From NCBI RefSeq assembly GCF_040954645.1, contig NC_092804.1, positions 89,331,717 to 89,395,716 on the forward strand: 64,000 bases of DNA, given 5' to 3'. The position numbers and the translations under genes are program-made. Below are positions 22,493 to 63,216 of this stretch, piece after piece (the first letter of the stretch is position 1; every line of letters begins with the position of its first letter). The notes beneath the pieces are model-generated. The model ran no database searches and was not told the origin of the DNA. It saw nothing but the letters and a program-made list of their open reading frames with translations. Origin of the DNA: Diabrotica undecimpunctata (taxonomy: Eukaryota; Arthropoda; Insecta; Coleoptera; Chrysomelidae).

Positions 22493-22699
22493 AAGACTTT
22501 TTCTTTAATTTAAAAAAAAAATTAATTAATTAAAAATAATATTGTATGAATAAATGGTCAACACAAATTAAAATATTAAACAGTTAAAAAATATAATTAA
22601 AAGAATTGAAATGGTTTCGGTCATGACTAAAAGGTTCGGAACCATGCTAAGTTACACGTTGGCCGGTAATGCAGATCCAATGCTTACCGACATTGAGCT

Positions 22700-23860
22700 G
22701 TGTCTGTGGTCTGTGTCGGCACATGCGCAGTGTGTCTGTCTGGTTTGAATGTCCCATATTCTACTGAGGTAGATATTGCCAGATTAGTACGATATGCTTA
22801 TCCAACAGCTCCCGAAGACATGATGGAAAAATTGGCCGTTCAAACGTTTATTGATGGTCTTCGTGATCATGGAATGCAGAGAACACTGCGATTAGCTCGT
22901 CACAAGACGCTGGTTGATGTCTTATCCGCCGCCCTCGAATACGAGTCAGCTACGCAGGCCTCTGGCGGTTACAGTAAAGTTAGGACTGTAAAAGAGGAAG
23001 GAGATGAAGACAAACTTGACCAGCTCGTTAATATGATGAAAAGTATTACATGCAAGAAAAAGAAGACCATAAAATCAAGAAACTCACCATCAGGAAAACC
23101 AGAACGAGTCAGCCTTAGGGGGGCAGCTTCGACCCGGAACTCTTTCAAAGACCCTCGTATACTAATAGCTTCTTTGAAATGTCGTGAAGATAGTCTATAT
23201 GTAGATGGAGAAATAAATGGTAGAAGACATACGTTGTTGGTGGATGAAACAGGTGAAAATGCCAACATTCATGGAGAAATCCAGGTACAATTGGGAATTG
23301 GAGCAGAAAAGTTTGTCCATACTGTTATAGTTGCTGACATCGAAGAGGATGTCATATTAGGAATGGACGTAATGAATATGCATGGATTCCAATTGGATTT
23401 TAAGAATAAGATAATCAAAGTTGGCAACGAGGAGGTATTTCTCCATCCACATAATGACAACACTGTGCAAGCAGCCATTAAAGAAGATACAGTCGTGCCT
23501 GCGAGAAGCGAAACGATCATAGTAGCGCGGCTACAGGGAATTGTGGACGAAGGGAGACCTGTTATGATGGAGCCTTGGAACCACGACGATGAGGTTGGCC
23601 GTGGAATCATAATTGGAAAGGAATTGGTGACTTCGGCTAAGGAAATTCCTGTGAGACTTATCAATGTCAACGACTACCCAGTGACCATAAAGAAAGAGAC
23701 AAAAGTAGGAATTTGTGTACCTGTGACATCCATAATCCGTCAGGCGACAACATCTGATAATTCCAACGACAAATTCGACCAAATAGTTGCAGTTGCTGGA
23801 CAGTCTCTGAATCAGATTGAGAAAAGGAAATTAAGGGAATTATCAGTAGCAGTATCGTGA
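22700..23860 (+). pseudogene. Ty3/gypsy Gag C-terminus fused to remnant protease
   Basis: Structural protein and protease part of an LTR element. The Gag capsid C-terminal pattern RLVRYAYPTAPEDMMEKLAVQ...FIDGLRD...LAALEYES-like lies at residues 28-85, followed by a charged region. No CCHC knuckle is seen, only one Cys before a Lys run. The protease segment begins at LYVDGEINGRRHTLLVD, and the catalytic Asp-Thr-Gly with the flap is missing: the frame jumps to ETGENANIHGEIQV and continues to VILGMDVMNMHG. An internal deletion with the frame kept is the simplest reading. The downstream linker then meets a stop at 23858-23860. The N-terminus of Gag and the 5' LTR are absent. Confidence 0.8.
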
Positions 23861-23889
23861 TATTTTCGTACCGAAAGGAGGAAAGACGG

Positions 23890-26800
23890 GAAGAACTACC
23901 GTTGTTAAGCATAAAATTGATACTGGTAATGCTAAGCCAATTCGTCAAACAGCTCGACGATTACCACAGGCGAAAAGAGAGGAAGCTGAAACGATTGTTC
24001 AGGAAATGAAGATAAGACGGGGTGATAGAACCTTCTACGAGCCCATGGGTCTCCCCGGTGGTCCTGGTTAAGAAGAAAGATGGAACGACTTGGTTCTGTG
24101 TGGATTACCGTTTGCTGAACAACGTTACCAAGAAAGATAGTTATCCCCTGCCTCGGATCGATGACACATTGGCTGGAAGTAAATTGTTTTCTACTTTGGA
24201 TTTGAAGTCTGGATACTGGCAGGTAGAAATGGACCCAGTAGATAAAGAAAAGACAGCCTCCACCCCAGGATCTGGATTGTGGCAATTCAACGTTATGCCA
24301 TTTGGACTCTGTAATGCTCCTGCAACATTTGAGAGGCTTATGGAAAATGTGTTGAGAGGGTTATCTTGGAAAACATGCCTGGTTTATTTAGATGACATAA
24401 TCGTCTTGGGGGAGACATTCGAAGAACATTTGAAGAATTTAGAAAACGTTTTTAATCGACTTAAAGCTGCCCAATTGATGTTAAACCCCAAGAAGTGCCA
24501 GCTATTTCAAGGTAAAGTCAATTATCTGGGTCATATAGTCAGTAAAGAAGGAGTGGCCGTGGATAAGGGAAAAATCGATTCCATCAAGGAATGGCCAAAA
24601 CCAACTGACAAACATCAAGTGAGAAGTCTGAGGTTTATTAAGAAGTTTGCAGATATCGCTAAACCATTAACGCGACTTACAGATGAAGCAAGAGAATACC
24701 GCTGCCAAAATGCCTTTGAGACCTTAAAAAAGCATTTAAAAAAGCAAGGAGAGTTCATCTTAGATACGGATGCAAGTAATGTGGGAATTGGAGGAGTGCT
24801 GTCTCAGATTCAATGAGGACAGGAACGAGTCCTCGGATATTTTAGTAAAGTTCTTTCAAAACCTGAGCTGAATTATTGCGTCACGAGAAGAGAACTTCTA
24901 GCAGTAGTTAAATCAGTAGAGCACTTCTATCAATACCTCTATGACAGAAAGTTTCTAATCCGAACCGACCATGCCGCCCTTAAGTGGTTGATGCAGTTTA
25001 AGAATCCAGAGGGTCAGATAGCCAGGTGGATCGAACGACTCCAAGAATACGATTTTAAGATTGAGCACCGGGCCGGAGTTAGCCACAGAAAGGCTGATTC
25101 TCTTTCCAGAAGGCCATGCCCATCAGAGTCTTCCCACTGCAATAAAACGGAATCCAAGGAAGCAGCAGTGCTAAGAACGACGATGGTCAACGACGACTGG
25201 ACGCCTACTAGGATAAGGGAAGAACAAGAGAGAGATCCAGTTATACAGAAAATCCGAAAATGGAAAGAGGAAAACCGTCGACCACCTTGGCAAGAAATAT
25301 CAAACCTATGCTCAGTAGTTAAGACGTATTGGGCCCAGTGGGACTCATTTATCATCGAAGATGGCTTGGTCAAACGAGTCCTGGAAAATGATGACGGTTC
25401 AGAGAAGAGAAGACAGTTGGTGATCCCAAAGAGCAGAATAGCCGAAGTACTTCGTCAGTTACACGACAGTCCATCAGGAGGGCATTTTGGTGTAAAGAAA
25501 ACCCTTCAGCGAATTCGGGAACGGTTTTATTGGATGAACAGTTCGGACGACGTAAAAGACTGGTGTAAGAAATGTACTATTTGTGCTACGAGTAACGGGC
25601 CTTACCGAAAAAGGAGAGCTCCTATGAGACAATATAATGTTGGAAGCCCGTTTGAAAGAATAGCTTTGGACATCGCTGGGCCATTTCCAGAAAGTGAAAA
25701 TGGAGGCAAGTACATGCTGGTAGTAATGGATTACTTCACTAAGTGGGTCGAGATTTACGCACTTCCAGACCAGAAGGCCGCCACCGTTGCAGATAAGTTG
25801 ATCAAAGAATATATCAGCCGATTTGGAGTACCTTTGGAGATCCATAGTGATCAAGGCAGGAACTTCGAAAGCGATCTATTCCAAGGAATATGTGATAGAC
25901 TAGGCATGAAGAAAACAAGAACTACAGCATATCATCCGCAATCTGATGGTATGGTAAAACGGATGAATAGGACAGTCGGCAAGTATTTGACAAAGATGGT
26001 GTCCGATCATCAGCGAGACTGGGACCAATACCTTCCGTTCTTCACAATGGCCTACAGATCTGCTGTTAACGAATCAACAGGTCAGACACCAGCCAGAGTC
26101 CTATTCGGACGCGAAATGCGACTACCTTGTGATCTAGAATTTGGGTGTCGACCTGGAGAAGATGTAGCAGGTGAAGATTATGTGACCGAATTACGAAGAA
26201 GAATGGACGATGTACATGAGTTGGTCCGTTCCCACCTTCAGATCGCTAGCGACCGAATGAAGAAATGGTACGATACACAAGCCGAAAAGGGTTGCTTTAA
26301 GAAGAACGACAAGGTCTGGCTCTATAATCCCAAGAAGCGAAAAGGTTGTTCTCCCAAATTGCAGCAGTTTTGGGAAGGCCCATACCTAATTATGGAGAAG
26401 ATCAACGATGTCATCTATCGAATAAGCAAGATTCCGAGGGGAAAGCCGATGATAGTACACCATAACCGGCTGGCCTCTTTCGAAGGTGACCACGACGTAG
26501 ATGAAGAAGTGGAAGTAAACCAAGTCCAAGATGTGTCTGACCTCACGTTTGAGGAATTCATGGGTGCCTATGGAGGTACCGGTAAAGCAAGACATGGTGT
26601 TACCACTGAAGAAAAGCAAGATCTACTCGCGCTCCCCGATGACTACTCGCTGGCCCTTACCATCCCGGCCAGTATCAAAGACGCACCAGGGTTGGCATCC
26701 GTCTTTCGAAGGAAGTTTGGTCGAGTTGCAGAACTTCAATGCCAAGTGCCAGCTCCCGGTAAAACCTTGAAACTCCAAGATGCATCACGTTGCCTTTTCT

Positions 26801-27177
26801 ACCTGGTAACAAAAGACACTGCCCGTGACCAACCTACCTACCGAGATGTATGGGAAGCCTTACTTCAATTGAGAGAGCACGTACTAGAGTCCGACGTGCA
26901 AAAGTTAGCCATGCCAAAGTTGGAGTGCCGCCAATTAGATTGGAGTGTTATCCGAAATATGGTGGAGGAGATCTTTAAAGACACCGAAGTCCAGGTGTTA
27001 GTCTGTTGCAATCCGCATAGTTACTGGTGCGGAGAGAAAACCGTCCCTTGTCATTTTTATACAACTGGAAGTTGTAAAAGAGGGTCCAGTTGCCGTTACC
27101 AGCATACAGTTCCGGTTCCAGTCCCGACAAGGTTCCAGGAGGAACCATCTTTTAAGAGGGGGGCAATGTTACGATAG
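23890..27177 (+). pseudogene. Ty3/gypsy Pol (RT, RNase H, integrase) with extra C-terminal domains
   Basis: Polyprotein of the same element. A short piece at 23890-24012 is in another frame, so a frameshift lies near 24015. From 24022 to 27177 there is one frame, interrupted only by TGA at 24814-24816. RT carries LDLKSGYWQ, MPFGLCNAPATF and the YLDD box. RNase H has DTDASNVGIGG, RRELLAVV and RTDHAALKW. The integrase HHCC finger ends CKKCTIC, and the core shows ALDIAGPF and IHSDQGRNF. The third catalytic residue, normally Glu in a GMVERMN-like motif, is Lys (AAA at 25957-25959). An integrase C-terminal domain (KNDKVWLYNP, EGPYLIMEKI) follows. Beyond it are a macrodomain and a CCCH finger (separate entry). 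The stop lies just inside the 3' LTR. Confidence 0.93.
26617..27105 (+). other. TARG1/OARD1-like macrodomain plus CCCH zinc finger in Pol
   Basis: Region of the Pol frame beyond the integrase (residues about 544-706 counted from the Met at 24988). It aligns by eye end to end with the small macrodomain of TARG1/OARD1 proteins, which bind ADP-ribose and remove it from acidic residues. Matching points are DLL-LP at the GDLF site, APGLASVFRRKFG (phosphate loop normally GAGIA), LFYLVTK with the nucleophilic Lys position kept, PTYRDV, and a final IFKDTEVQVLV strand. The loop holding the catalytic Asp (GCGLD in the family) is shortened to ECRQ, so hydrolase activity is doubtful while binding may remain. 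A CCCH finger follows at 27049-27105 (C-x7-C-x5-C-x3-H), a fold that often binds RNA. Assignment is by pattern, not by search. Confidence 0.75.
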
Positions 27178-27599
27178 ATGGTGACGTGTCGTATGACTCA
27201 GAACAGTAAACATGTTTATCACTAATATGCTTATTCATTCGAGTATTTTCTAGGTAATGCCTACCTGACAACACCCTTTGTTATAAAAACAACAGTTCGA
27301 AACTTCTGGAGACGAGTCGATGTGAAAACCAGTTTGCCGTTACCATTTTCGCCGCTCAGTCTGGTCGAGAGGATTGTCGACTTTTCGAGATAACGGCAGT
27401 TTATGTATATAAATGAAACATTTTATATGGAGGAACAGTTAATTCTGAAGATTCGCGTCGCGTTTAAATTGTACGCACGAATTATAATAAATTGTATAAT
27501 TAAGATAAATTATTTAATAAAGACTTTAATAAATTTGTTATAAATAGACCCTTTTAATAAATAAATAATAGATAAATTAGAATTATTAGAAATACTACA
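27167..27599 (+). repeat. 3' LTR of the macrodomain-bearing gypsy element
   Basis: Follows a polypurine tract (AAGAGGGGGGCAA) directly. It starts TGTTACG and, on the best reading, ends CTACA, giving 433 bp. AATAAA lies near 27519. No matching 5' LTR is present upstream, so the element is 5'-truncated. The end point is less certain than the start. Confidence 0.6.
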
Positions 27600-29454: not shown

Positions 29455-30232
29455 ACAAGTTTTTTGGAATTAAATCGATTTATTTCTCAACATAATCCCC
29501 TTTTAGCTCGATACACTTAGTAAGACGATGTTCCAATTTTTTTATCCCATCGAATAGTACGTTTGCTCGAGCTCTTTAAAATAGCCGAAGTTTCAGCGAC
29601 GACTTCATCATTTGTTGCGAAACTGCGTCCTCCGAGCCATTTTTTTAGGTTTGGAAACAGGAAAAAATCGCTTGCGGCAAGACCTGGGGAATACGGTGGG
29701 TTGGAATTGGTTCAACCAATTCATAGCCCAATTCGTGTAATTTTGCCATGGCGACGGCCGATCGGTGAGCCGGTTCATTGTCTTGGTGAAAGAGCACTTT
29801 TTTGCGTTCCAAATTGGGGCGTTTTCGACGCAATTCGGCATCGAATCGATCCAATAATGCTGCGTAGTACTCACCATTGATTGTTTTTCCTTTTTCCAAG
29901 TAGTAGATGTGGATGATGCCCTTCGCATCCCAGAAAATAGTCCATCACTTTGCCGGCTGAATGTGCACTCTTTACCTTCTCCGGCGGCCTTTCGCCGCGT
30001 TTGCGCCACTGTTTTGACTGTTCTTTGGTTTCCGGTGTGTAATAATGCACCCAGGTTTCAACAACGGTGATAAATCGGCGAAAAAAATGCTTCGGATCGC
30101 GTACACATAATTCACCATCATTTGGTCATGAAAAAGCTATCCTCGCGATGGGTGCCGCGTTTGCTGACAATCGATCAAATGCAAAAACGTGTGTCCACTT
30201 CGGAGACGCTTGTGGCGATGATGCGGTACTGT
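29455..30232 (-). pseudogene. Mariner transposase, decayed
   Basis: Mariner-family (DD34D) transposase relic. Clear parts are HYYTPETKEQSKQW near 30040, EKGKTINGEYYAALLDRFDAE at 29899-29840, and the second Asp box LFHQDNEPAH (usually QDNAPAH). C-terminal pieces run to about 29455. The frame shifts near 29900-29930 and again near 29650. The N-terminal helix-turn-helix is missing or eroded. Confidence 0.85.
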
Positions 30233-34724: not shown

Positions 34725-37271
34725 ATCATCATCATCATCTTGGTGCTACAGCCCTTAGAGGGCCTCGACCTTCTCAAGCTTTCTACGCCATTCTATTCTG
34801 TCCCTCGCTTGCATTTTCCAGTTGCCGACTCCGATCTTCTCGGCATCTTGTGTTACCCCGTCCATCCACCTTAGCTTTGGTCTACCCCGTCTTCTCATTC
34901 CTACGGGTTGCGCTGTTAGAATCTTTTTTATCATGTTTGACTCAGGGGCCCGGGCTACATGTCCTGCCCACTGCAGGCGGTTTCGCTTAATTATAGTGGT
35001 AATATCTTTACCACCAAACGTATGCTTGTAGATATTCTGCAGTTCAAAGTTATATCTACGCCTCCATACTCCGTTCTCACAGACCGCTCCGAATATCTTG
35101 CGTAGCACCTTTCTTTCAAAAATGGATAGAGCGGATTCATCTGTTTTCGTTAGCGTCCATGCCTCTGATCCATATGTGAGAACGGGGACTATCAGTGTTC
35201 TATACAGCCTTATACGAGTTTTTTGAGACAGACGTTTGTTAGCTAAGTACTTTGATAGACCATGATAACACCTGTTTGCAATTATTATTCGCCTTTTTAT
35301 TTCCTCAGATGTGTTATTATTGGGGTTAACCGATGTCCCTAGATATATGAACTCTTTGACTGCTTCGAAGTTTTGGTCATTGATGAATAAATTTGTGTCA
35401 ACATTTCCAGCTCTTGTGTTTGTGTTAGTCGCCATGAATTTGGTTTTATTTTGATTTATCTGTAACCCCATTCGTTCTGCTGCTGCTACTAGCTCGGTTA
35501 GGATTTCCGCAGTTCTCGCCCTAGTTCTTGTTATAATGTCCACGTCGTCTGCATATGCTAGAACTTGGACTGATCTATTAAATATTGTTCCCCTGCTATC
35601 TAAATTAGCGTCTCGTACAACTTTTTCTAAGGCGACATTAAAAAGCTGACACGCCAGCGCATCTCCCTGCCTTAACCCCCTATGTATTTGAAATGGGGTT
35701 GACGAGTCGTTTTGAATTTTAACTGCTGATAGCATCTTCGCCATTGTCACTTTTATCAAACATATGAGTTTTTTTGGAATTCCCAACTCATTCATAGCGT
35801 TGTAAAGACTTAGTCTTAAGACACTGTCATATGCCGCTTTAAAATCGACAAAAATATGATACATATCTATGTTAAACTCTTGCGCTTTTTCGAGGATCTG
35901 TCGTAGTGTAAAGATCTGGTTAATGGTTGAACGTCCACGCCTGAATCCCGCCTGATATTCTAGAAACATTTCAGTATAAGGCTTTAATCTCTCGTGCAAA
36001 ATATTTGACAATATCTTGTATGCTGTATTTAGGAGAGTAATTCCGCGGTAATTATTGCATTCCAGTTGGTTTCCCTTTTTGTGTAACGGGCAAATTAAGC
36101 CTAAGCTCCATTCTTCAGGCATTTGCTCCTCAGACCAAATTCTACAAACAATTTCTCGCATCACCTTGGTGAGCTGCTCTCCACCGTGCTTAAATAACTC
36201 TGCTGGGATGCCATCGCTACCTGGGGACCTATGGTTCCTTAGTTTTTCTATAGATATTTTCACTTCATCTACCGAGGGGGGTTCCACGAGTTCCTCATTT
36301 CGATATTCCAGCTCTATATTGTTAGTAGGTTCCCATTCCAGCAACTCTCGAAAGTGCTCTACCCATCGTAAAAGGATATCCTCTTTGTTGGTAAGTAAGT
36401 TACCTTCCTTATCATTACAATAGTTGATTCTTGGTTTGAATTCTTTTCTAATACTATTTATTTGATGATAGAACTTTCTTGTTTCTCCTTGACTCATATG
36501 GCTTTCGAGCCGTTCTAATATGTCATTTTCCGAGTCTTCGTTCCGAAGGTTGGCGATCATCAGGGCTATACGTATTTTCGAAACTGCTGACCGAAACAAT
36601 TCGTTGCTGCTACAGCTATACCATTCCCGTAGATTCTTTAGCCAGGAGTTTCGTCTTCTTCCTATGGACCTTTTTCCTGCTATTTTCCCTTGCATAATTA
36701 TTCGAAGCAGTTCATATCTTTCGCCTCTTGTAATGTGTCCCAAGTATTGCAGTTTTCGTTTTTTGATCGTAAATATGACTTCCTTTTCTTTATTCATTCT
36801 TCTCAAGACCTCGACATTTGTGACTCTCTCCGTCCATGATATTCTCAGGATTCTGCGATACATCCACAGTTCAAAAGCCTCTAATTTTTTGGATTCCAAG
36901 TACTGGATAACATTCCAAGTACTGATCTTTAAATCATTGTCCTTAGTTCGGTGCGTGGGTCGTCGTCTTGAATTCAGTCCGGCTTTTCTATCTCGAGATT
37001 TCGTAACAATAGGTTTTTATGGGATGAGGGAGTTAGCCTCATGCCCAACCCCCTTTTCGGAGGACCATTTCTCCCTTCCTCGTCAGCCCTGACCCCACCT
37101 TCCACTGGGGTTGGTTACCCAGTCTCCAGTAGGGTTGCTCAGGTTTACCGGGGTTCACCCGTGTGATCCGGATCACACTTCTCGGAGGTGAGGATAGGAA
37201 TTGAGTAGGAGAGGCTAGAGGCGTTATCTGGAAGCAACGCCTTATGATGCGCATCACTACTCCATTACTCC
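34725..37271 (-). mobile_element. Composite LINE with leader, chimeric ORF and GAT tail
   Basis: Minus-strand element. From right to left it has a GC-richer leader (37271-36950) containing GGTTGGGCATGAGGCTAAC, a common insect LINE 5' leader phrase, then the long open frame, then the 3' tail (GAT)n at 34725-34740. CTTCTTTGACATAC (34711-34724) and CTTCTTTTACATAC (37272-37285) flank it. These differ at one of 14 positions and may be the target duplication. The whole unit therefore seems to have inserted as one piece into worn-LINE sequence. Confidence 0.6.
34755..36899 (-). CDS. Chimeric LINE ORF: C-terminus of family A joined to RT of family B
   Basis: An open frame of 714 codons without a stop. 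It stays open upstream to about 37020 and includes an endonuclease start DLKISTWNV near 36930. Residues 1-120 match the C-terminal end of the LINE at 38152 (LEAFE-W-YRRILRISW...NVEVLRRM-KE...LQYLGH...NLR-WY...ANLRN). At about residue 120 (36540) it passes in frame into another LINE: SHMSQGETRKFYHQINSI, SPGSDGIPAELF, YRGITLLNTAYKI, QAGFRRGRSTINQIF, FVDFKAAYDS, LRQGDALACQLFN and the catalytic YADDVDII. The C-terminal part has LYGSEAWTLT-like and RRRGRPKLRWMDG motifs. An RT could be made, but the endonuclease is almost wholly missing. The start used is not an ATG; the first Met in frame is in LWMYRR. Confidence 0.8.
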   Translation of the reverse strand: MESKKLEAFELWMYRRILRISWTERVTNVEVLRRMNKEKEVIFTIKKRKLQYLGHITRGERYELLRIIMQGKIAGKRSIGRRRNSWLKNLREWYSCSSNELFRSAVSKIRIALMIANLRNEDSENDILERLESHMSQGETRKFYHQINSIRKEFKPRINYCNDKEGNLLTNKEDILLRWVEHFRELLEWEPTNNIELEYRNEELVEPPSVDEVKISIEKLRNHRSPGSDGIPAELFKHGGEQLTKVMREIVCRIWSEEQMPEEWSLGLICPLHKKGNQLECNNYRGITLLNTAYKILSNILHERLKPYTEMFLEYQAGFRRGRSTINQIFTLRQILEKAQEFNIDMYHIFVDFKAAYDSVLRLSLYNAMNELGIPKKLICLIKVTMAKMLSAVKIQNDSSTPFQIHRGLRQGDALACQLFNVALEKVVRDANLDSRGTIFNRSVQVLAYADDVDIITRTRARTAEILTELVAAAERMGLQINQNKTKFMATNTNTRAGNVDTNLFINDQNFEAVKEFIYLGTSVNPNNNTSEEIKRRIIIANRCYHGLSKYLANKRLSQKTRIRLYRTLIVPVLTYGSEAWTLTKTDESALSIFERKVLRKIFGAVCENGVWRRRYNFELQNIYKHTFGGKDITTIIKRNRLQWAGHVARAPESNMIKKILTAQPVGMRRRGRPKLRWMDGVTQDAEKIGVGNWKMQARDRIEWRRKLEKVEAL

Positions 37272-37825: not shown

Positions 37826-40066
37826 AGATTCAGAAACTCTATAACATCTGTTTAAGCGTACCCGGGATCCGACATAAATTCGGACCACAATCCACTTATC
37901 GCCAAAATGAAACTTAGTTTAAAGAAAGTTCAAAGACCAAAAATTATGAAGTACGATATTAACCAACTGAAAAATAAAACCGTAAAGGAAAAGGTACAAA
38001 AACGCCTAAAAGAAAAAACGTGAGCTCGTACAGAAAAACCATGGGCCCGTACAGAAACAGATAACACAGATGTAGAACTAGAAAATTTGCACAAAGTAAG
38101 TCAAGAAATAACAGAGAAATACTTAAAACCTGAAAGAACAAATGAAAAGGAATGGACGACGGAGAAGATTCTATGTATGATGGAAGACAGAAGATATACT
38201 ACAACATAACTACTATTAAAGATAATAAGAATTACTACAACAACATAAAGAACAAAATAAAAAGGGCTATTAAAATAGCAAAAGAAAATTGGCTTAGCTC
38301 GAAGTGTATAGAGTCATTACAACAAAAACATGATTCATTTAACCTCCATAAAAAGATTAAAGAAGCGGCAGGCTTATATAAACACAAGAACACTGGATCC
38401 CTGACAGATAATCAGGGAAACATAGTACTGGAAATAGAGCATAAAAGAGATATTTGGATTAAATACGTGGAAAAAACTTTTGAAGATATACGAAGTAACA
38501 CTGGTATTACAACAAACACCAATTGCGAATCTGGACCACCATTTACAGTCGAAGAAGTAAAATATGCCATCACAAGCACCAAAGATGGTAAAGCAGTAGG
38601 CTCTGATAATTTTCACTCAGAATTCTTAAAACTTATGGACTATGATGGCATAAAATGGTTGACAAATATATTAAACAGTATATATGATACGGGCGTGGTT
38701 CCCCAAGAGTGGTTAGTGTCAACTTTTATAAATCTTTCAAAAAAACCCAATGCGAGAAATTGCGAAGACTATAGAATTATAAGCCTTATGAGCCATTTAC
38801 TTAAAACATTTCTAAAGGTCATTCACAAAAGAATATATACAAAATGTGAGGAACAACTAACAAGAACACAATTCGGATTTCGTGATGCTCTGGGAACACG
38901 GGAGGCCCTTTTTGCTGTACAGGTCCTATTTCAGAGATGCAGGGATGTGAATTGTGACATATACGTATGCTTTATAGATTACCAGAAGGCATTTGACAGA
39001 GTAAAACATGACAAATTAATGACTCTCATGCAAGAAATTGGAATTGACAACAAAGATCTTAGAATTATCAGAAACATTTACTACAATCAAACGGCCAAAA
39101 TCAAAATAGAAGACCAGTTAACTGATAAAATTGCAATTGAACGTGGAGTACGACAGGGCTGTATTTTGTCTCCATTGTTGTTCAATATTTATTCTGAATG
39201 GGTATTTAAGGAAGCTTTAGACGGTTGTGCGAAAGGAATACTAATAAACGGTGAATGGTTGAATAACATTAGATATGCAGATGACACTATAGTTTTTGCC
39301 GATAATCTGAATGACTTTCAGATATTAACAAATCGCATAACAGAAGTCAGCAACAGATACGGACTAGCTCTTAACATAAAGAAAACCAAATTTATGAAAA
39401 TTAGTAAAAAACCAATACTAAACGCTCAACTTACAATCAACCAACATAATATCGAAAGAGTCGAGCAATATACATATCTAGGCACCAATTTAAATAGCCA
39501 ATGGAACCACTCAACAGAAATTAAACAGCGAATAATAAAAGCAAAAGCAGCATTCGTTAGAATGAGAACCATTTTCAACAGTCGAGACATATCATTAAAA
39601 ACAAAATGCCGTCTATTGAACTGCTACATATTCACAGTTCTGCTCTACGGAATGGAAGCATGGACACTGACTGTTGCATCTATGAATCGGCTAGAAGCTT
39701 TCGAAATGCGGTGTTATAGGCGCATCTTACGTATATCCTGGGATGACAGAATTACCAATGTGGAGGTCCTGCGTAGAATGGGGAAAGAATGTGAAATTCT
39801 CATGACCGTTAAAACTAAAAAGTTGCAATATCTAGGACACGTAATGAGAAATCAAGAACGGTTCGGCCTTCTCCAGCTGATTCTCCAAGGGAAAGTAAAT
39901 GGTAAGAGAGGACCGGGAAGAAGACGCATTTCCTGGCTTTAAAATTTACGAAAGTGGTATAACACGACTACCACTGAACTGTTCCGCGCTGCAATAAACA
40001 AAGTAAAGATAGCCGTGATGATCGCCAACATCCGGAACGGATAGGCACTTTAAGAAGAAGAAGAAG
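37826..40066 (+). mobile_element. LINE (family A), 5'-truncated, with target duplication
   Basis: Flanked by an 11-bp direct repeat, AGTACAACTTT, at 37815-37825 and 40067-40077. Copy 1 of the host repeat shows the related unduplicated site near 16570 (AGTATAACTTT). The element begins inside the endonuclease (INSDHNPLIAKM at about 37875-37910, the catalytic SDH motif). It ends with an (AAG)n tail at 40053-40066. This is a classic target-primed insertion. Confidence 0.9.
38152..40042 (+). pseudogene. LINE family A reverse transcriptase, one nonsense change near the C-terminus
   Basis: Reverse transcriptase that would copy the LINE RNA at the nicked target. Blocks visible in order: KAVGSDNFHSEFLK, TFINLSKKPNARNCEDYR, TRTQFGFRDALGTREA, the catalytic Asp in CFIDYQKAFDRVKHD, RGVRQGCILSPLLFNIYSE, and YADDT at 39273-39287. 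The C-terminal part has YTYLGTNLNS, LYGMEAWTLT and LEAFEMRCYRRILRISW. The frame runs 596 codons to TAA at 39940-39942. Reading on in frame gives NLRKWY...ANIRNG and a natural stop TAG at 40040-40042, so the TAA is most likely a point change from a Lys codon. Upstream at 37860-38022 lies the end of the endonuclease in a frame closed by TGA. Confidence 0.9.
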
Positions 40067-44228: not shown

Positions 44229-44452
44229 GAAATGTTTCTTCAACGTCGATATTCCCAAAAAAAATCTTTATTTCGAAAATAAGTTACAATTTTTTGAGAA
44301 ATTCTACAAACTACTACATTTAATGATTTAAAGTTGACTATTGAAACATAATAATTACAATAATGATAAAAATATTGATTTCTTCCTATTTATAACGTCG
44401 GATATCGGAATCTGCTGATTCTTAATAGTAAGGGAGCTTATGGCTACATTTC
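44229..44452 (-). repeat. 3' LTR of the errantivirus-like element
   Basis: 224 bp, matching 53656-53879 at every base I compared. The env stop codon TAG lies inside its first bases (minus sense). Confidence 0.93.
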
Positions 44453-45834
44453 TCCTCCCTCCATTGGTTGGGACTTCGTCCTCGAAGTTTTGGTTACTTC
44501 GGCTATCAGCTCGTCTAGTATCTGGATCTGGGCAGGATGCAATTTTTCTCCAAATAGGATTTTGGAAATTCGTTTTCTTTTCCTAATTAGGAAGATTATT
44601 AGGTAAGCTAAAATAGTTAAAAATATTATAACAGAAGTGGTGCTCAGTCCTATGGATAATCGGGGTAGTACTTCTATGGTATCTATTGGTTGAATTTGGC
44701 CATGTGTCTCTGGGATTGTTAATTTTTCAATTTTCATCTCATGGTTTGGTATTAATTTTATTGGAACAATTTTTGGAATGGAAATATCTTGAGACGTCTT
44801 TTTATTAAATTGGATACCTTCAATCATTATTGGTACATCTGTCGTCAAGAGGCTGGTTGAATTAATTTCTATCTGCTGGATTCTCATTGGGTGAACTATT
44901 CCTAGCAATATGACTTTGCTGGTTTCTTGGAAAAAGTTCTCTGTGATTAACGTTTTTGTGCAATTATCTACATTGGGTATGTTACATTTGGATTGTACAT
45001 AGTTGGAACAAACTATGTTATCGCCTTGTCCTATACAAGTGTTGAACCATTTATTATTTGTATAGTAGCTTGCAGGTGGCAGAATCATAACATGATCTTT
45101 GTTTGGAATGGGATAGATTTTATAGGTAGTATAAGGAGTTTCATGGAGTATAGGGATTTTAATTATTATGAGCATTGTATTTGAAGTTACACAAACTAAA
45201 GTTTTTGTTGACTCTATAAGTTCGTAAGGGTGTTCATTACTATTGGGAATTGAATTTCTGGGATAAATTTTGAGAAGGTTCTCTTTAAGGTCTATTATTT
45301 CCTTTAAAGTGAATAATTCTATATTAGAGATATTAAGTTCAGATAAAGTAATGGTTCTTATAAGTTTCATTAGAAATTCGTTTATATTTTGGAGATTTAT
45401 TATCTCATTGTGTAGAATGATATAGCTGTCGAAATCAGCTGATAATTTGTTGAGTGCAGATATGAGAATTGAATTATCAGAATTTAGTTTTTCTAAAAGT
45501 TTATCGAATCTCGTGTTAAAAGAGTTTCCATAAGATATTTGGTTATTAAATTTTTTTATGATTTCGTTTTGTTTATTTTCTAAAGAGATTATGTGTGATT
45601 TTAACAAGTCTAAGTCAGAGTCGTCTGGATTTCCAGTCACGTATTTGATGGCTGTACCTAGAAAATTAAAAAGTCCGCGTTTCTGTTTTCGCGTAATCTT
45701 GTGTAGATCGTCTTTTGTTTGTTCTTGTATGTGGGTGTATTGGGAGTACAGTAGCGAGAGAGGTGCATTTTTGAAGTGATCTTTGAAATAACTTGTCGGA
45801 CTAGCGTCAATACTGTCGGATAATTTGTCTAGCG
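44444..45834 (-). pseudogene. Envelope protein (F-like), 5' part separated by a hAT insertion
   Basis: Membrane fusion glycoprotein of the errantivirus type, related to baculovirus F-like envelope proteins. The visible part has a furin-like site (RKQKR) at about 45690, followed at once by a hydrophobic fusion-peptide-like stretch (GLFNFLG). A long helical region, a Cys-rich ectodomain (CSNYVQSKCNIPNVDNC near 44980) and one C-terminal membrane span (SVIIFLTILAYLIIFLI near 44630-44580) follow, then a basic tail. The apparent upstream end of the frame falls in hAT sequence and is not a real start. The remaining 5' part would lie beyond 48458. As it stands the gene is split and cannot give a whole protein. 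Confidence 0.85.
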
Positions 45835-48450
45835 CAGTGGTCGCCAACCTGTCGATCGCGAGCTACCGGTAGCTCGCGGAGGCAATTCTGGTAGCTCTCA
45901 CAACGATTTTAATTTAAAAATTACAAACTGCAAAAATCAGAGAAGCTTCCGAAAATTCCACAAAAAAATCTAATTGTCAAAATATTAAACATAAACAGCG
46001 GCAACGTTGCAGTGAGCGATCTGCCCCTGACGCCGTCAAGCTAGAATCGGCTATTTATAGAACCGACCAGCCGGACCAGCGCGTTAGTGTTCGAGAACGA
46101 TCTGGATTGCTTTGAACCGGATAAATACGCACGGCGCGGCGACATTGCGCTTAGTTTAAAACTGAACGCGTAACCAACGTCCAGCAGTTGGGTTAGTAGA
46201 GAACAACAAAAATAATATTATGGCAAGCAGTTTTAAGAAGGTAAAGACATACCACTTTCATTCGGAATGAAAGAACAATACTTTTGTACAGAAGTTAAAG
46301 ATAAATTTGTGTGTTTGTTATGTAGTACTTCGGTCTCCGTTGCTAAAAAAGGAAATATTGAGAGACATCATAAAACTGTACATTCTAATTTTGAAAAATC
46401 ATTCCCACTACATTCTGCCGCCAGAAAGGAGAAATTGAAACAGTTAAAAAAATAGTTCATTGGACAACAATCAATATTTTTAAGAACAGTCAACAAAAAT
46501 AAGGCTGCAACTGAAGCACCGTACCATGTGTCCCAGATAATTGCACAAAAAAGAAACCTTATGAAGACGGGGAAATGATAAAACAGGCGTTTTTAGAAGC
46601 TGCTGATTCGGTATTTGCCAACTTTAGAAATAAAGACGAGATAGTTTCAGCTATAAAATCTATGCAACTTTCTGCTAATACAGTGACGAGACGTGTAGAA
46701 GTAATGAGCAATGATATTTTTTTACAGTTAAGAACCGACTTAGATAACTGTGTTTATTTTTCATTTCAACTGGATGAATCAACAGATGTCGTTGACACTG
46801 CCCAGATGGCCGTGTTCGTCGGGATGGTTTTTAGTGATTTTACGATTAAAAAAGATCTTTTGAAGTTCATTCCACTGAAAGGACACACTACTGGACAGGA
46901 GTTGTTTTCTCATTTAAAAAATATTATTTCTTCCGAGAAAACTCCAATATCGAAAATGGTAGGCTTGACAACCCATGGCGCTCCAGCTATGGTGGGTTGT
47001 GATAAGGGTCTGGTGGCGTTATGTCGTAAAGATGAAACTTTTCCGCAATTTCTCTGTTACCACTGCATTATCCATCAGTAAGCATTATGTGGAAATTTCC
47101 TGAAACTCAACAACGTTATGAAACTGGTGGTAAAAATTGTGAACAAGATTAGGAGCTCAAGCGTTACAAAGAAGATTATTTAGAACCTTGGCCGATGAAG
47201 TTGACTGTCAATACGGGGACCTACTCCTTCACTCTGAAGTCCGATAGTTAAGTAGAGGACGGGTGCTGAAACGTTTTAATGGTATCCTATCTGGCATAGT
47301 TCAATTTTTCAAACAACGCTATGAACCGACTCCGGAACTAGAAAATTCAATCTGGATTAGAGATTTTGGTTTTCTCGTGGATATTACAGAGAAATTAAAC
47401 GAACTTAATTTGCAGCTTCAGGGGAGAGAAAGAACTAGCGGAAATGATTTTTGATATAAAAGCATTTATCAAAAAGCTGGAGTTTTGGGAACAAAACCTA
47501 ATTAACAGCGATTTCAAGCATTTTCCTATTCTTTCAGAAAAAATATCTCAAAATCCATTAGAACCCTATGACAACAAATATCATGTATAAATAATTTCTA
47601 CCCTAAAGAGTAACTTCAAAAATCGTTTTAAGGATTTCAATGAAATGGCTTTAGTAGCGCAGTTTGTTGTTTCACCCTTTATGGAAATTGATATCCACCA
47701 GCAGTTTGCAGCTTGTGTTATGCAGAACTTTGGCGACGACATCGCTGCAACAGAAATGGAAGTCATTGAGTTTAAAATGATTTCGCCTTAAAATCGTTAG
47801 TCTCAAGTACTGAATGTATCTGGCCTATTGTAAGTAAAGACAAATATTCAGTTCTATGCCGTGTTGCCTTGAAAGTGAAAGCATTATTCAGTTCAACCTA
47901 TTTGCGTGAATCTTCTTTTTCTAATATAAAGTTTATTAAGAACAAATATCGCAATCGACTTACAGATGAACATTTGGATAATTGTATTCGAATGGCTGCA
48001 TCAAATTATACTGAAAACATTAAAAAAATTATCGATGAGTCTGAGTGTCAGCCTTCTCATTGAACGTGCTTTTTTATTTTTTAATGTTTATGTTTATGAT
48101 AGTGCGTTACTTTTTTGTTGTTATTATTAACTATTTTTAAATCATACGTGACATGCCGTTGTGGCTGGATAAAAGTTTGTGTTTATTTTTCAAATACCTT
48201 CGTTTGATAGGTAGGAATGTAGCTATGAACAAGTACGGACTAGTAATATTAGTTACTTTGTTATTAGTTTATTATTAGTACCTATGTATTATGTATTACC
48301 AGTTAAACAGTAAAATAAAAACATATAATGATAGATTAACTGTGGATTATTTCATTTACGTTGCGTTACGTGGCTTCCGTGTGGGTAGCTCGCTGTTTAT
48401 TCCAAAATTAACAAAGTAGCTCAACACATTGAAGAGGTTGGCGACCACTG
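45835..48450 (+). mobile_element. hAT transposon with perfect ends and 8-bp duplication
   Basis: Terminal inverted repeats CAGTGGTCGCCAACC (45835-45849) and its complement (48436-48450) are perfect over 15 bp. The target duplication GTCTAGCG is exact at 45827-45834 and 48451-48458. Subterminal TAGCTC repeats flank both ends (near 45870 and 48385). It lies inside env of the errantivirus-like element, so it is younger than that insertion. Confidence 0.97.
46220..48063 (+). pseudogene. hAT transposase with BED-type finger, decayed
   Basis: Transposase of the hAT element, of the kind related to ZBED5/GTF2IRD2-like proteins. The start MASSFKKVKTYHFHSE at 46220 is cut by a frameshift at about 46267. 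The BED-type finger follows (FVCLLCSTSV...NIERHHKTVH). The core has FQLDESTDVVDTAQMAVFVG (first Asp), LTTHGAPAMVG-DKGL (second Asp) and LCYHCIIHQ (CxxH motif). The C-terminal dimerisation part ends SSTYLRESSFSNIKFIKNKYRNR-like at 47870-48063. Several stops and frameshifts separate the pieces (46455, 47081, 47454, 47590). The ends look intact, so this copy may have been moved by a transposase from elsewhere. Confidence 0.85.
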
Positions 48451-48529
48451 GTCTAGCGGAATGTGAAGAAAATGTCTGTGATAGTGGGAGATTTCTCTTG
48501 ATTTGCCTATCTCTTCAGCATAGTAACCA

Positions 48530-51500
48530 TTATTCGGAATCTCCTGAATATTGAGTGGATGGACCAGGGCGAGGATTGTCCTGTGAAAAATTTGGGTCTT
48601 GAGTAGGTTTATCTACATGTTTTCGTATTCGTTTTACATATTTAAGGTGAGTGCTTGTTAAATTTTGTTTATCTGTTTTACCGATTATTTTTGTTTTGTC
48701 TTGCGTTTCTGGATGAATAGTGGAGAAAGGGGCTTGTAATTTGGACTTATGTTTTTTCTTAGAAACATATAGGGATTTTGTAAGGTCTATTTCCGGAATA
48801 TCTTCGGCATTTTCGTTTTGTCTATCTAAGAGTTGTTGTCTTTTTTGTTTTTGTTTATTATATAGTTCTGCAATAAAGGGTTGGAGTTCTTCTTTATGTC
48901 TTTGATTATATGTTTCGTATATCGGAAGATCAAAGTCGAAATGTATTTCTTCTGCATAGGGTCCGTACAGAATTGAGAACGGGGAATAATCTGTGGAACT
49001 GTGGATTGATTGGTTGTAAATAAGAATGGCGTGTGTTAGAATGTCATCTAACGAATCATTTGGATTTTGGGCTTGTAAGGTCCTAAGTTTTTCAATAAGA
49101 GTTGAATGAAAGCGCTCTACTGGAGAGTTTGAGGAAGAATTGTTTACTGTTGTAAAATGTATTTCGATTTTGTGGATATTTAGGAATTCTTTAATGACTG
49201 CGGAATTAAATTCGGTGCCGCTGTCGCATACAATCTTTTTTGGGTAATTGTGGTGCGAAAAGTAGTGTCTTAATTTATTTAGTATGGAAATGGAAGTTTT
49301 GTCGGTGAGCTTATAGCATTGACCGTATTTGGAAAAAGAATCTATTATTGTGAGATACAGGTTTTTATTGCAGTGGAATAGATCGATATGTAATATATCA
49401 AAAGGTTTTTGACCTAACAACGATCCTAATTGAGGAAGTTTATAAGGACGTCGCTCGTATTTATTTTTTAGGCAAATTTCGCATTTATTGATAAAATTAG
49501 AAATAGTTGTCTGCATTGAGGGCCAATAAAATTTTTGTTTTAAATGTTTGTAGGTTTCAATTATTCCGTTGTGATTTTCTACGTGATATTTCTTTATGCA
49601 TTCTATTTGTTGGTTTTCTTCTTCTATGTCCTGAAGTAGTATATTGCAAAATATTGCTTTGACTGTGGAATTTATTTTTTCTTTAAAATAGTTACAGATA
49701 AAAGGTCTAAATTCGTGAGGGATTGTTATTGCAAATTTTTAATTTGGTCTAAGGATATTTTGGAAGGTATTTGCTATTTCTGTTTTCCAATTATTTGTCA
49801 AAGTGACAGTGTAACGGTGTTTGTTAAAAATTCTTTTGTATTTAATTTCAAAATTATTTGACTCTGGTTTAAAAATAATTTGGTTTGAGGATAAATTAAT
49901 TGGTTCAGGTGAAATCTCTATTCCAGTGATAGGGTTCTCAACTGATGTATGTTGTGTGTTAGTACTGTTTTGTAAGTTGTCAAAATCGGCAAGGAAATCA
50001 TCTATGTCGAAATTGTCGGGTGGTTCAGCACATTCTGAATTCGGGGGTTCAGCACATTCTGAACTCGAGCTTAGGGCATTTATTTGGACTCGGCTAAGAG
50101 CATCAGCAACTTGATTCTCTTTGCCTTTTTTATATTTAACTTCAAAATCATATTCTTCTAGTTTAAGTCTCCATCGGGCTAATCTAGAAGTGGGGTCTTT
50201 AATTTTGTAGATCCATACGAGAGGATTGTGATCTGTTTCTACAGTGAATTTTTGGTTGTATAAATACATACGGAAGTGTTTACAAGAATCTAGTATGGCT
50301 AAAAGTTCTTTTTCAATAGTGGAGTAGTTTCGTTCTGCGGAATTTAGAGTTCGAGAATAGTAGGCAATAGGGTGATTATTTTGAAATAATACTGATCCTA
50401 TAGCTATATTAGAGGCGTCTGTAGTCAGTACAAAAGGCTTTTCGAAGTCTGGATATTGTAAGACTGGAGAATTAGTTAACAATTGTTTGCATTTTGCAAA
50501 ACATTCTAAATAATTTGGATTTGTGGGGTCGATAGTTGCTCCTTTTCGAGTACATCTCGAAAATGGGGACGTTATTTTTGCAAAGTTGGGTATGAATCTT
50601 CGGTAGTAACCGATTAAACCAAGAAATGATTTAATTTCTTTTACTGTTTTTGGTAGAGGATATTTTTGTATAGCTTCGATTTTTGCTGGGTTAGGTTTGA
50701 TTCCTTCGGTTGTCACTACGTGACCTAAGAAAGAAACTTCTTTCGTGAGAAACTCAGATTTGTCTAACTGAATTTTTAAATTATTTTTTCTAAAAGTGTC
50801 AAAAATAGTCGCAATATGAACTAAGTGTTCTTGCAGTGACTTGGAAAAAATAATGACATCGTCCATGTAGACGAAGCAAAACTTATGAATAAAGGGCCTA
50901 AGAATATTGTCCATTAACCTTTCGAATGTTGCTGGGCTATTCTTTAAACCAAAGGGCATACGTAAAAATTCAAAGTGACCATGCGGAACTGAAAAGGCTG
51001 TTTTCCGAATAGAATCCGGATGAACTTCAATCTGATGGTAACCTTGAGCTAAATCTAATGTTGTGAAATAACTGGCTTTTCCTAAGTTATCCAGTATCTC
51101 GTCTATCTGAGGAAGTGGGTAGCGATCACTTTCAGTATGATCATTAAGCTTCCTGTAATCAATTACTAATCTAAATTTTTTCTGACCTGAGGCATCAGCT
51201 TTTTTTGGTACTATCCAAACTGGAGCTGAGTACGGTGAAATTGACGGTCGAATTATCTTATTATCTAATAAATTATTTATTTGTTTTTTTATTTCTTCCT
51301 GCATTGCTTTGGGATGCCGAAATCCCTTTACATAAATTGGATTTTCATCCTTAGTTTTAATTTCGTGTCTAACAGCTGATGTGAAAGTTAAATTTTTGTT
51401 TTCGTCGTAAAATACGTCTTTAAATTTTTTGCAAAGACTTATAATTTTATATTTTTCTTCGTTATTTAAGTGCGAAGTACGGATTTTGTTTTCGTTAAAA

Positions 51501-52100
51501 TGCGTCGTTGGAATTTTTGCTATATTATAATTACAGAAGTTCTCAACTTCAATTCTCTTATTAAATTTCATAGGCATAGGTAAGTCGAAAGTGTCTAGAA
51601 AGCCGTTTTTTGCAACGTGAATAGAATTGGGAATTTTGATACCTTGAAAGTGTCTTTCGCGCAATAAGACTTCGCCATTATGAACGCTTACTGGAATTTT
51701 TTGGTATAAAGTTTCAAATGGAATGCTAACGTGAGGATTCTCAAAGGTTAAAGTATGAGTTGCGTAGCTAATTGTGGCGTGGAATCTTTTCAGATCGTAA
51801 GTTCCAAGGAGGAGGTCAAAGAATTGACTAAAGTCGGCAATTTTTACGTCGAATGTTTGTGGAATTCCATATTCTAGGAATAGTGGCGTCTTAATATTTA
51901 AGTCGTGCTTGGAAGTAATTTTCATTGACGTTAGCGAAAAAGGTTTTCGATAAATATGATTTTTATCAAATAGTTTGAGAGCTCGCGGATTTAAAATTGA
52001 ATGGGAACCGCCGGTATCGATTAAAACGCGTAGATGTGTTTTGGGTGTAACGAAGCAAGGTAACCCAGGGGAACTTTCGATATTATTTAGGTTTATACAG
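48530..52100 (-). pseudogene. Errantivirus-like Pol: protease, RT, RNase H, integrase; one stop
   Basis: A single minus frame from about 52100 to 48530, with one stop (TAA at 49739-49741). Protease: LIDTGGSHSIL at about 52020-51990. RT: LDLAQGYHQIEVH, MPFGLKNSPATFERLMDN and the YMDD box. RNase H: TTDASNIAIGSVL, EKELLAIL and ETDHNPLVW. The integrase HHCC finger is split by the open-frame boundary near 49516 but reads on without change. The core retains all three acidic residues (HIDLF, CDSGTEF, SNSPVERFHS). Pol begins by overlap with the end of gag (52093) in the -1 frame, near a CCACCCCCTG stretch, as expected for programmed frameshifting in this group. Only the one nonsense codon breaks it. 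Confidence 0.92.
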
Positions 52101-53357
52101 GGGGTGGATGATCGTCTAACGGGATGGCTTGAAAATCCTGATGATTTTCATCATGCAAATCGGGCTCTTGTTCGGATTCGTAATTTTCGAAATCATTTTC
52201 GAAATATTGGGTATCATTTGAATCTATGTGAAAATTGTGGCTTCTATTAGTTGTAATTGTCATGGGCTGATGGTTTCTGGTTGTGGTAGTTTGAACACCG
52301 CTCATTGGAGTAGCAAAATTTGGTTGGGGTCGAGGAGCTTTATATTTATTTAGTCTTTGTTGGTTGTTTTTCGGAACATTGTTTCGTTGGAAGGATTGAT
52401 TTTGTTCGTGAGAACTGAAATTTTGTCTCTGAGGAAAATTATAGTTCTGTTGTGGAGTAAAGTTAAAATTGGGCTCTGTGTTGTGAGTTGAAGGTCTCAC
52501 ATAATTCGAATGCGTGGGTTGGAAGTTTGAGTATGTGGGTTGGAAGTTGAGTGTGTGGGTTGGAAGTTTGTGGATCTTTGATTATTCGAAGATTGATAGG
52601 GTTTATTTTTGAGTGGGGCCTTTTTGTTTTGTTGGCTCTTAAGGAAGTTCATGTATTGTTGTTGATTTTTGTGGTTATCGTAGGCAATACACTTTTGAAG
52701 GGCTTCTTCTAGGGAATTTAATTCAAAATGCGATAAGTATTCGCAATAAGGCTCGTTGATTCCGGTACAGAAAGTTTTGAGGGCAATGTTTTTGAAATAT
52801 GGAGTTTTAAAAGTGACTGTCGCGGGATTATCGTTTAAAGTGATGTGTTGGAGTAAATCGTTCAGATTTGTAGTTATTCTCTGATGATAATTGTCGTAGG
52901 ATTCACTATGTTTTTGGACGGTAGTGGATAGTTGTGTTACTAATATGTCTTCGGAACGTCTGTCTCCGTATTTAGTTAATAATGCTGGACGAATTTCTGT
53001 CCAATTGGTTTTATTAGAATAGTTTAAGAAATTTCTAGGTTCTCCTTTAATTCGAGATACGATATGGGAATTTAAGATAAATTCTTGGGACGGATTTAAA
53101 TCTTGGGTGCCTAAGAAAACTATTAAATTATCTACTGCTTTGATAAAGGTGGAGAGGTTGTCTCCAGAAGAGAATTCGGGCAGAGTTGAGCAAAGGCTAG
53201 CAATATCGCTATTGGTCATCGGCATTTTGGAACGTAATTTAGATGCAGGCTTAGATTTAGAGGTTTGTAGATTTCTTTTTATTTTTAAATTTAAATTGTC
53301 GAAGAGTAAACTTAAATTTTCGATACTATTTTGGGAAATATCATTCAATGTACTCAT
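52093..53357 (-). pseudogene. Errantivirus-like Gag, one frameshift
   Basis: Structural protein. The first part at 53357-52497 begins MSTLNDISQN and has a capsid-like region (LPEFSSGDNLSTFIKAVDN, TKYGDRRSEDILVTQLSTTV, LEEALQKCIAYD). The second part at 52500-52093 is Asn/Gln-rich and basic without a CCHC knuckle, then acidic, which is usual for errantivirus Gag. The frames differ by one base. The break falls in a short tandem repeat (TGGGTTGGAAGTTTGAG-like units, 52510-52575), where one unit lacks a T. Confidence 0.85.
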
Positions 53358-53655
53358 AAAATATATGCAAAAAATATAAATGCAAGTATATATAAAAATT
53401 CGTTGAAGTAAAATGTTATAAATAATATAAATTCAATAACAATAAATAATAAATTCAATGTAAATGTTTAAGAATTCAATTAAAATAATAAATGCTCATA
53501 AACAATGGTAAAGAAAGGAAAAACTTACGCAAGGATGATCGTGTTTGATTTCCAATACATTTTTCTCTTTTACCAGGTTCTTCAGGATTTCATTAAACTA
53601 ATGTAGACCAGGAAACGACTATGTTTCTGTATGAAATATCCTGTTCGCAGCGCCA

Positions 53656-57900: not shown

Positions 57901-58647
57901 CTAACATTGAATACTTAAACTAATATAAAAATATGAAGAATAATAACACAAAGCACTCCAAGTGTACATATTATATTCGCTAAAGTCAAAGTTAAAATAT
58001 ATTCGTTCCCTTCTATCTAACTGAGATTGCGGTAACTTAAATATTATATCATTTGTCGAAATATGTGATTTGTCTTCTACTACAGGCCACTTAAATTTTC
58101 CATTCTCTTCATGTTTGAGGAATGAGATCTCATAATCGGCATTATCTGAATCTTCCTCGTAATCAGAAATATTTATTATCTGGCCAACGAAATATTTATT
58201 CGTTTTCTTACCCAAAAACTTAACAAGCACAAAATCATTCATGCTGAATTTCTTTATTAATTGGTCGCTATTGAATGATACATGCTCAGAGTTTAACTCT
58301 ATCTCACTTGTTATTAACTCAAAACTAACATCATTTGTAGAGGAACCAGATTGCACCCATTTTTTATCTGAATCACTGCTAGAACTTTCAACCTTTTTTT
58401 TCTTTGTTCTTTTTGTTTGACTTTTAATGCCTCTGTCTCTGCTATTTTTGGTTTTCTGTTTTCTGCAGTGTTTATTTTCTGCCTTTCCTTTTTCTGTGTT
58501 TCTTAAATATTGTTGATACGAATCGGAGCTTACTACAGATGGGAGTTTTTCCTTGGGCTGTCTTTTCAGGCCAAAACATGACGGATTTAAATGGAAATGG
58601 GATTATTTTACCCCCCATCCCCAGTACACTGGAGCTTTTATTGGCAT
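57901..58647 (-). pseudogene. Pogo-like transposase, C-terminal part
   Basis: Downstream piece of a gene whose upstream piece is at 63445-64000, split by the LTR element. From 58560 down it reads SSDSYQQYLRNTEK, a basic KRTKKKKVESSSSDSDKKW region, then from 58260 a compact domain (MNDFVLVKFLGKKTNKYFVG, KWPVVEDKS, LPQSQLDRRERIYF). This resembles the small C-terminal module found in insect pogo/jerky-like transposases. The frame is broken near 58600. Assignment rests mostly on the catalytic part at 63850-64000. Confidence 0.5.
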
Positions 58648-58664
58648 TGTTTTGATTCCTTTGG

Positions 58665-58732
<68 letters not shown>

Positions 58733-58874
58733 AGAAGTTCATACAGAATCTTTATTATAGCAATCAAGAAGCTACAAGTTACAAGTTACATGACCCTGGC
58801 CGGAATGGCGGTACCGGATGACATCTCTCTGTCATCGGTCTTCTTCTTTTTTACCTTTAACATAATATATTACA
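58648..58874 (-). repeat. 3' LTR containing (TA)n at 58667-58727
   Basis: Partner of 63217-63444. The (TA)n tract lies inside the LTR near its 3' end (minus sense), between TGGTCAT and AAACAAGAAGT. Confidence 0.9.
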
Positions 58875-58953
58875 CGTTCCCCTTTTTTTTAGATAGTACA
58901 AAACTAAAATACAAATTCAACTAAAATACAAATACAAACAAGTAGCCACAATT

Positions 58954-61900: not shown

Positions 61901-62175
61901 AGGTGGTTTCTATGGCATTTACTCTTTTTATTAAGTCAAATTTAATACAATCGCTAAGGCCTAATATTGGTTCAGCATTAAAATCAACAATCAGAAACTT
62001 TAATTTACAGGAGCTATTTTTATACTGACATTCCAAAAAAACTTCACGTACTGGTTTAAATTTAAAATTACCATAAGCAACTAGGGTTGTTAATGTTTTA
62101 TTAAGTAGCAACTTACTTGATAGAGAATCAAAAATATACTTAGGTAGAATGCTGATATTAGCACCTGAATCTAAT
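58954..62175 (-). pseudogene. Gypsy-type Pol: protease, RT, RNase H, integrase; several frameshifts
   Basis: Protease begins near 62170 with DSGANISILP. RT N-terminal part at 62111-61470 has KPVIQYSRKIP, TEWVNNLLIVEKK and VIDMKNGFWQIELN. A 15-16-bp tandem duplication (AAAGTACATAAATCTG, 61444-61474) shifts the frame there. The RT box is YFDD (IYFDDIIISG near 61320). RNase H: QCDASGEGIGC, EKELLAVV, QSDHKPL, with a further shift at 60673. The integrase finger and core at 60637-59552 keep Asp, Asp and Glu (SDFFQYD, YADNMPYNS, SNGPAEKYV), with a stop at 60149. The C-terminal piece at 59322-58954 is acidic and ends DYVLN. At least five breaks make it inactive. Confidence 0.88.
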
Positions 62176-63096: not shown

Positions 63097-63216
63097 CCAG
63101 AAAATCTTTGGATTGGCGGGCTTCTAACCTCACTCTTTCCTTGTGGTTTCAAACTTAATTAACACTTCTACTTACTCAAAATTCGGGCAAACTAGCAGCC
63201 TTCACACCTGACACCA

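Follow-up and report, generated by a model that had tools for sequence, protein, structure and literature searches.

A Ty3/gypsy retrotransposon lineage with a TARG1/OARD1-type macrodomain and a CCCH zinc finger behind the integrase in Diabrotica undecimpunctata

The window, meaning the whole 64-kb stretch of Diabrotica undecimpunctata DNA that was analysed, carries on its forward strand a damaged copy of a Ty3/gypsy element, here referred to as family A, in which the Pol reading frame continues past the integrase into two further domains. The features of this copy are as follows.

22765..27562, + strand: family A copy, a 5′-truncated and frame-broken relic that spans from the frame upstream of the protease to the 3′ LTR
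22697..23857, + strand: open frame where the end of gag and the protease are expected in the broken copy; gag is named by position only
24016..24813, + strand: reverse transcriptase and the start of RNase H (Pfam RVT_1, E 6.1e-35); the frame closes at a stop
24817..27177, + strand: frame of 786 residues with RNase H, integrase, macrodomain, CCCH finger and stop (open reading frame and Pfam)
25423..26475, + strand: integrase (residues 203-553), with H2C2 domain, rve core and p58_C-type C-terminal domain (Pfam)
26599..27012, + strand: TARG1/OARD1-type macrodomain (sequence and fold comparison)
26812-26814, + strand: equivalent of Lys84, with the two-residue gap of the Asp125 loop between 26928 and 26929 (alignment)
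27049..27105, + strand: CCCH zinc finger, C-x7-C-x5-C-x3-H (Pfam zf-CCCH, E 1.3e-06)
27154..27163, + strand: polypurine tract directly 5′ of the 3′ LTR (read from the sequence; it fits the LTR starts of relatives)
27167..27562, + strand: diverged 3′ LTR, which begins TGTTACGATA like its relatives and has about 75% identity in its 3′ half

Identity of 99-100% with the 5′ pieces of three other copies starts at 22765, and LTR similarity stops at 27562. The frame breaks fall between 23857 and 24817, and the RVP_2 match (Pfam) in the first open frame is weak. The Pol stop codon (27175-27177) sits within the first 11 bases of the 3′ LTR, which is single and diverged, no paired LTRs having been found for the window copy. 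When four macrodomains were compared with the whole window by tblastn, 26587-27021 was the sole region matched; Rfam and tRNA scans of the 64-kb window were empty.

Other mobile elements are encountered in the window. An errantivirus-like element at 44447-53432 (minus strand) is spread over separate frames, one of env type (matches to Baculo_F at E 9.5e-14 and to Gypsy env at E 1.1e-10) and others with integrase, RT/RNase H and a weak match to gag. A further gypsy-type element, a broken one in which RT and RNase H are matched, lies at 57904-63123 (minus strand). Two long frames with RVT_1 matches and without an integrase match, at 34758-37016 (minus strand) and 38146-39939 (plus strand), are probably non-LTR elements, and fragments at 29608-30125 (minus strand) resemble, by eye, a mariner-type transposase.

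A first-pass annotation of this DNA had placed a TARG1/OARD1-like macrodomain past the integrase, followed by a C-x7-C-x5-C-x3-H finger, and both assignments are borne out: in this lineage Pol ends in a C-terminal tail that starts right after the integrase and consists of a TARG1/OARD1 (ALC1-like) macrodomain and one CCCH finger. The best PDB matches of the macrodomain by phmmer are OARD1 chains (E 7.8e-20 for the window, 9.7e-29 for family B, 5e-35 for P0002 and 9e-11 for family C, three relatives described below), and in the predicted models the macro fold of the element domain lies nearest to that of TARG1. Pfam Macro fails to detect the window macrodomain at E 1; an annotation by Pfam alone would thus overlook the domain. 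The NCBIfam model of DarG, from the DarTG toxin-antitoxin system, gives 29.9 bits, far below its cut-off of 250. The finger pattern is common to family A, P0001 and family B, with PF00642 exceeding its cut-off in the window and in P0001, and is absent in family C and P0002. We infer that the element macrodomain was derived from a cellular OARD1 gene.

The family A lineage has been mobile very recently. The genome searched (1.74 Gb) is the same as that of the window, and the first-look candidates of the searches numbered 5814, 4921, 4793, 16674 and 17844, these being unscored counts in which families are possibly mixed. With the macrodomain and finger as query, the best 150 scored copies of the 5814 candidates are the window and 149 others at 99% identity; no internal stop occurs in these 150, a lack that is biased because they are the best-scoring of the unscored candidates. 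Open frames of 1784-1843 residues that end in the finger are frequent among the scored copies. The lengths of many family A open frames cluster either around 1420-1422 or around 1784-1843 residues, a split that points to two subfamilies distinct in the region where gag meets pol.

Both ends were fetched for 15 family A copies, which were picked mostly for long frames and are therefore young-leaning. All 15 have a long upstream frame at the gag position with near-identical first residues. An LTR pair was found in all but one; the 14 alignments extend over 310-442 bases at 98.9-100% identity (nine of them at 100%), and each of the 14 pairs is flanked by a matching 4-bp target duplication, for example ATAC or CTAG. 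The first-pass annotation had named, as one of two outcomes fatal to its claim, that the domain be missing from every related element with intact LTRs, and with 14 of the 15 macrodomain-bearing copies LTR-paired the claim passes this test of its own. The primer-binding site, TGGTGTCAG..., is taken by us to be tRNA-Leu-like.

The tail is constitutive in family A and is held by purifying selection. In a sampling independent of the macrodomain, the integrase served as query and the downstream piece was taken for the next 20 hits in list order, copies that are top-scoring and hence young. Macrodomain DNA is present in all 20 and at full length in 19; the frame runs uninterrupted across macrodomain and finger in 16, and four are broken (one by a stop, one as a partial copy, two by frameshifts). 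Among the 16 open copies, with the four broken ones left out, mean pairwise pN/pS is 0.42 over spacer, finger and tail against 0.10 in the macrodomain, so that finger and tail are less constrained than the macrodomain. The integrase gives 0.14 in 15 open, gap-free copies of the macrodomain-finger sample (the other five of 20 being not open or not gap-free), and constraint on the macrodomain is as strong as that on the integrase itself.

The same junction recurs outside family A. A second family, B, surfaced in genome searches with an aphid macrodomain and with mammalian OARD1, and 15 of its loci were read. In all ten from the aphid-macrodomain search the C-terminal part of the integrase is followed by macrodomain and finger, as in family A, and three of the five further loci have this junction as well; one (L052) is broken upstream, and in another (L058; G000 C2:68898774-68899196, minus strand) the macrodomain and finger are in frame with different upstream sequence, as in a chimeric element or a rearranged copy. 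Each of the five family B copies tested, which were chosen for long frames, has an LTR pair (99.6-100% identical), and pN/pS is 0.24 among ten copies, a figure given no weight as evidence since they were picked by similarity to P0002. Between families A and B the integrase part retains 60% protein identity (477 codons, pS 0.85, pN 0.27) and the macrodomain 41% (129 codons, pS 0.83, pN 0.38); silent sites are thus saturated while the protein is held. P0001, a Pol of 1339 residues from another sample, has the layout of the window, and among solved structures its best match is Ty3 (7q5b, E 2.1e-127). Compared with the window it has 95% identity over RNase H, 88% over rve, 67% over the macrodomain and 74% over the finger, and shares 0 of 5 spacer residues; of the larger Pol domains, the macrodomain is the fastest in this comparison.

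In family C of the same genome and in the aphid protein P0002 the macrodomain is placed before the integrase. Family C keeps the macro fold in the predicted model while the pocket glycines are gone; its alignment contained OARD1 rows, on which the model leans. The RT of family C is 52% identical to that of the errantivirus-like element of the window and 45% to that of P0001 (three unrooted rows). Three macrodomain-bearing gypsy families (A, B and C) reside in one genome, in addition to the elements from aphid and from another sample. Protein searches with regions of long Pol proteins, limited to shared 5-mers and a length range, returned P0001 and P0002 as the sole relatives beyond the window. 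In a further search the 120 matches listed of 5254, P0061 among them, are nearly all OARD1 genes; element-borne domains may hide among the other 5134, so the spread observed is a lower bound.

A macrodomain tree was built from 26 rows, of which 20 are OARD1 rows hand-picked from the 120 listed, with family C left out; for a second tree P0003 and P0004 were removed, of which one is truncated and the other sits on a long branch. Family A, P0001 and family B form a group (98/97), and the aphid pair is separate (100/99), yet a single clade forced on all five element rows is not rejected (p-AU 0.413). A TARG1-like gene elsewhere in the same genome (L051; G000 C3:100934206-100934631, minus strand), with both residues of the catalytic dyad, reads as cellular because it is without surrounding element domains. 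Its position beside element rows is weakly supported (69/8), and support for L051 with all element rows is 94/90. By eye, the N-terminal part of this gene is long and rich in repeats, and the macro-like stretch is followed by another that is degenerate.

No relative was found in viral_contigs, either by single protein or by alignment. Among viral structures in BFVD the best match to the family A model is A0A8E0KJF2, VP8 of Kadipiro virus (E 7.3e-15, 35% identity), and the next matches are from several thrips-associated RNA viruses. By these model comparisons, TARG1-like macrodomains appear to occur in insect-associated viruses as well.

The catalytic residues of TARG1 are given as Lys84 and Asp125 in PMC9411070, and the positions were verified in row P0005. 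As the first-pass annotation had recognised, family A keeps the lysine, has a shortened catalytic Asp loop and reads APG in the phosphate loop. It thus differs from human OARD1/TARG1 (C6orf130, an ALC1-like hydrolase) in the lack of Asp125 through a two-residue gap and in APG for GAG, and differs further in that the domain is fused behind a retroelement integrase and followed by a CCCH finger. P0001 likewise keeps Lys84 and lacks Asp125 through the same gap. Family B keeps Asp125 with Arg in place of Lys84, aphid P0002 and P0061 keep both residues, and family C aligns with both, the surrounding glycines being lost. In the phosphate loop, GAG in mammalian OARD1, P0001 has AHG, family B TKG and the aphid rows SQG, the first glycine being missing in A, P0001, B, C and the aphid rows. 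The pocket of family A has also changed from His32 to Leu and from Ser35 to Pro. D20, L21 and T83 are retained in A, P0001, B and the aphid rows, along with K84 or D125. Judged from these alignments, the conserved feature of the element macrodomains would not be catalysis. Both DarG, in which the lysine is the one dyad residue present, and SCO6735, in which neither is, are described as hydrolases (PMC7050489 and PMC9411070), so that loss of Asp125 is no proof of lost activity in family A.

In the order of RT, RNase H and integrase (window and P0001), and in its LTRs and 4-bp target duplications, the element resembles the Gag-Pol of other Ty3/gypsy elements (Metaviridae), from which it differs in the macrodomain and finger after the integrase (A, B and P0001) or the macrodomain before it (C and aphid P0002). 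No description of a macrodomain in a gypsy element was found among the open-access PMC papers listed by the searches, in agreement with the earlier remark that no described gypsy lineage was known to have this layout. The suggestion of a new kind of accessory module holds in that no gypsy precedent was found; it holds less well in that the macrodomain also stands before the integrase in family C and aphid P0002, and that macro-domain genes had already been reported in endogenous retroviruses of fish (Basta et al. 2009, cited by PMC4977317). These too are retroelements that acquired a macro domain; according to PMC4977317, the genes are extra open reading frames of epsilon-like fish retroviruses. 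In insect R1 LINEs (PMC4686597) a helicase domain of viral source was similarly added to the C-terminus of a retroelement polyprotein; the element class and the domain are different.

A parallel in position comes from the chromoviruses. Here a chromodomain occupies the place behind the integrase. Both groups would have a reader-type domain at the integrase C-terminus; in place of a methyl-lysine reader the present elements have an ADP-ribose-type macrodomain. Since the macrodomain stands in the place of the chromodomain, tethering is its likeliest use. The fold and the place at the integrase are kept (as is the finger in A, B and P0001) while the pocket chemistry varies, so that a binding module fits better than a conserved hydrolase. 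We tentatively favour, at a little under even confidence, a module that binds a ligand or partner on the integrase or the Pol/RNA particle and tethers it to an ADP-ribosylated partner, rather than a TARG1-like hydrolase. The macrodomain, presumably fixed to the integrase or the particle, would tether the integration complex or particle to an ADP-ribosylated target such as a host protein, nucleic-acid ends or chromatin marked by PARP, and the CCCH finger would contribute a nucleic-acid contact. Against a reader stands the erosion of the ADP-ribose pocket itself in family A, which may bind something else; against a non-enzymatic role stand the complete dyad of P0002 and the alignment of family C with both of its residues, as would fit an enzyme. 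The weaker constraint on finger and tail, and the fast macrodomain in the comparison of window and P0001, also count against the favoured reading. The GC content of target flanks (0.325 for 11 insertions, against 0.332 for the window) is uninformative on targeting. It is possible, if somewhat doubtful, that gypsy elements took up a TARG1-type macrodomain repeatedly, on either flank of the integrase, and that it reads ADP-ribose and directs integration to breaks or to chromatin marked by PARP, as a counterpart of the chromovirus chromodomain.

A serious rival, albeit an unlikely one, in line with the suggestion of the first-pass annotation that the module acts against PARP-type defence, is that the macrodomain is an active enzyme of counter-defence that strips ADP-ribose added by host PARP from element proteins, RNA or cDNA, either through a lysine-only, DarG-like chemistry (family A) or through the full dyad (aphid P0002). 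The retention of Lys84 in A, P0001 and P0002 argues for this, as do the statements in PMC7050489 that DarG needs no dyad residue but the lysine and that nucleic-acid ends are among the substrates of TARG1. Several mobile elements of Drosophila, some of the gypsy superfamily included, also rise without PARP-1, many single element changes not being significant and the authors allowing an indirect effect (PMC7712786). No single catalytic set is kept across the lineages, however, despite the kept fold: B has Arg at Lys84, A is without Asp125 and the phosphate loop, and C is without the glycine loops.

Pocket erosion that differs by lineage while fold and strong constraint persist, with family C retaining the fold without pocket glycines (in a model leaning on OARD1 rows), is also what would be expected of a structural or protein-interaction spacer, a macro fold that does not bind ADP-ribose and instead aids Pol folding, processing or assembly or binds a host partner by its surface. 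This is the slightly less probable of the two rivals, and unlikely: D20, L21 and T83 are retained in A, P0001, B and the aphid rows with one or the other dyad residue, and a finger of nucleic-acid-binding type is kept alongside in A, B and P0001. Chance resemblance, or an accidental fusion with host sequence picked up once in one damaged copy, would suit the truncated and broken state of the window copy and is ruled out by the match at E 7.8e-20, the 20 of 20 integrase-selected copies, the same junction in family B and P0001, and purifying selection.

A captured ADP-ribosylation domain beside the integrase would link LTR retrotransposons to the PARP system, whose loss in Drosophila raises several mobile elements, possibly indirectly (PMC7712786). 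Families A, B and C, in each of which the active site is altered in its own way, provide natural mutants of TARG1.
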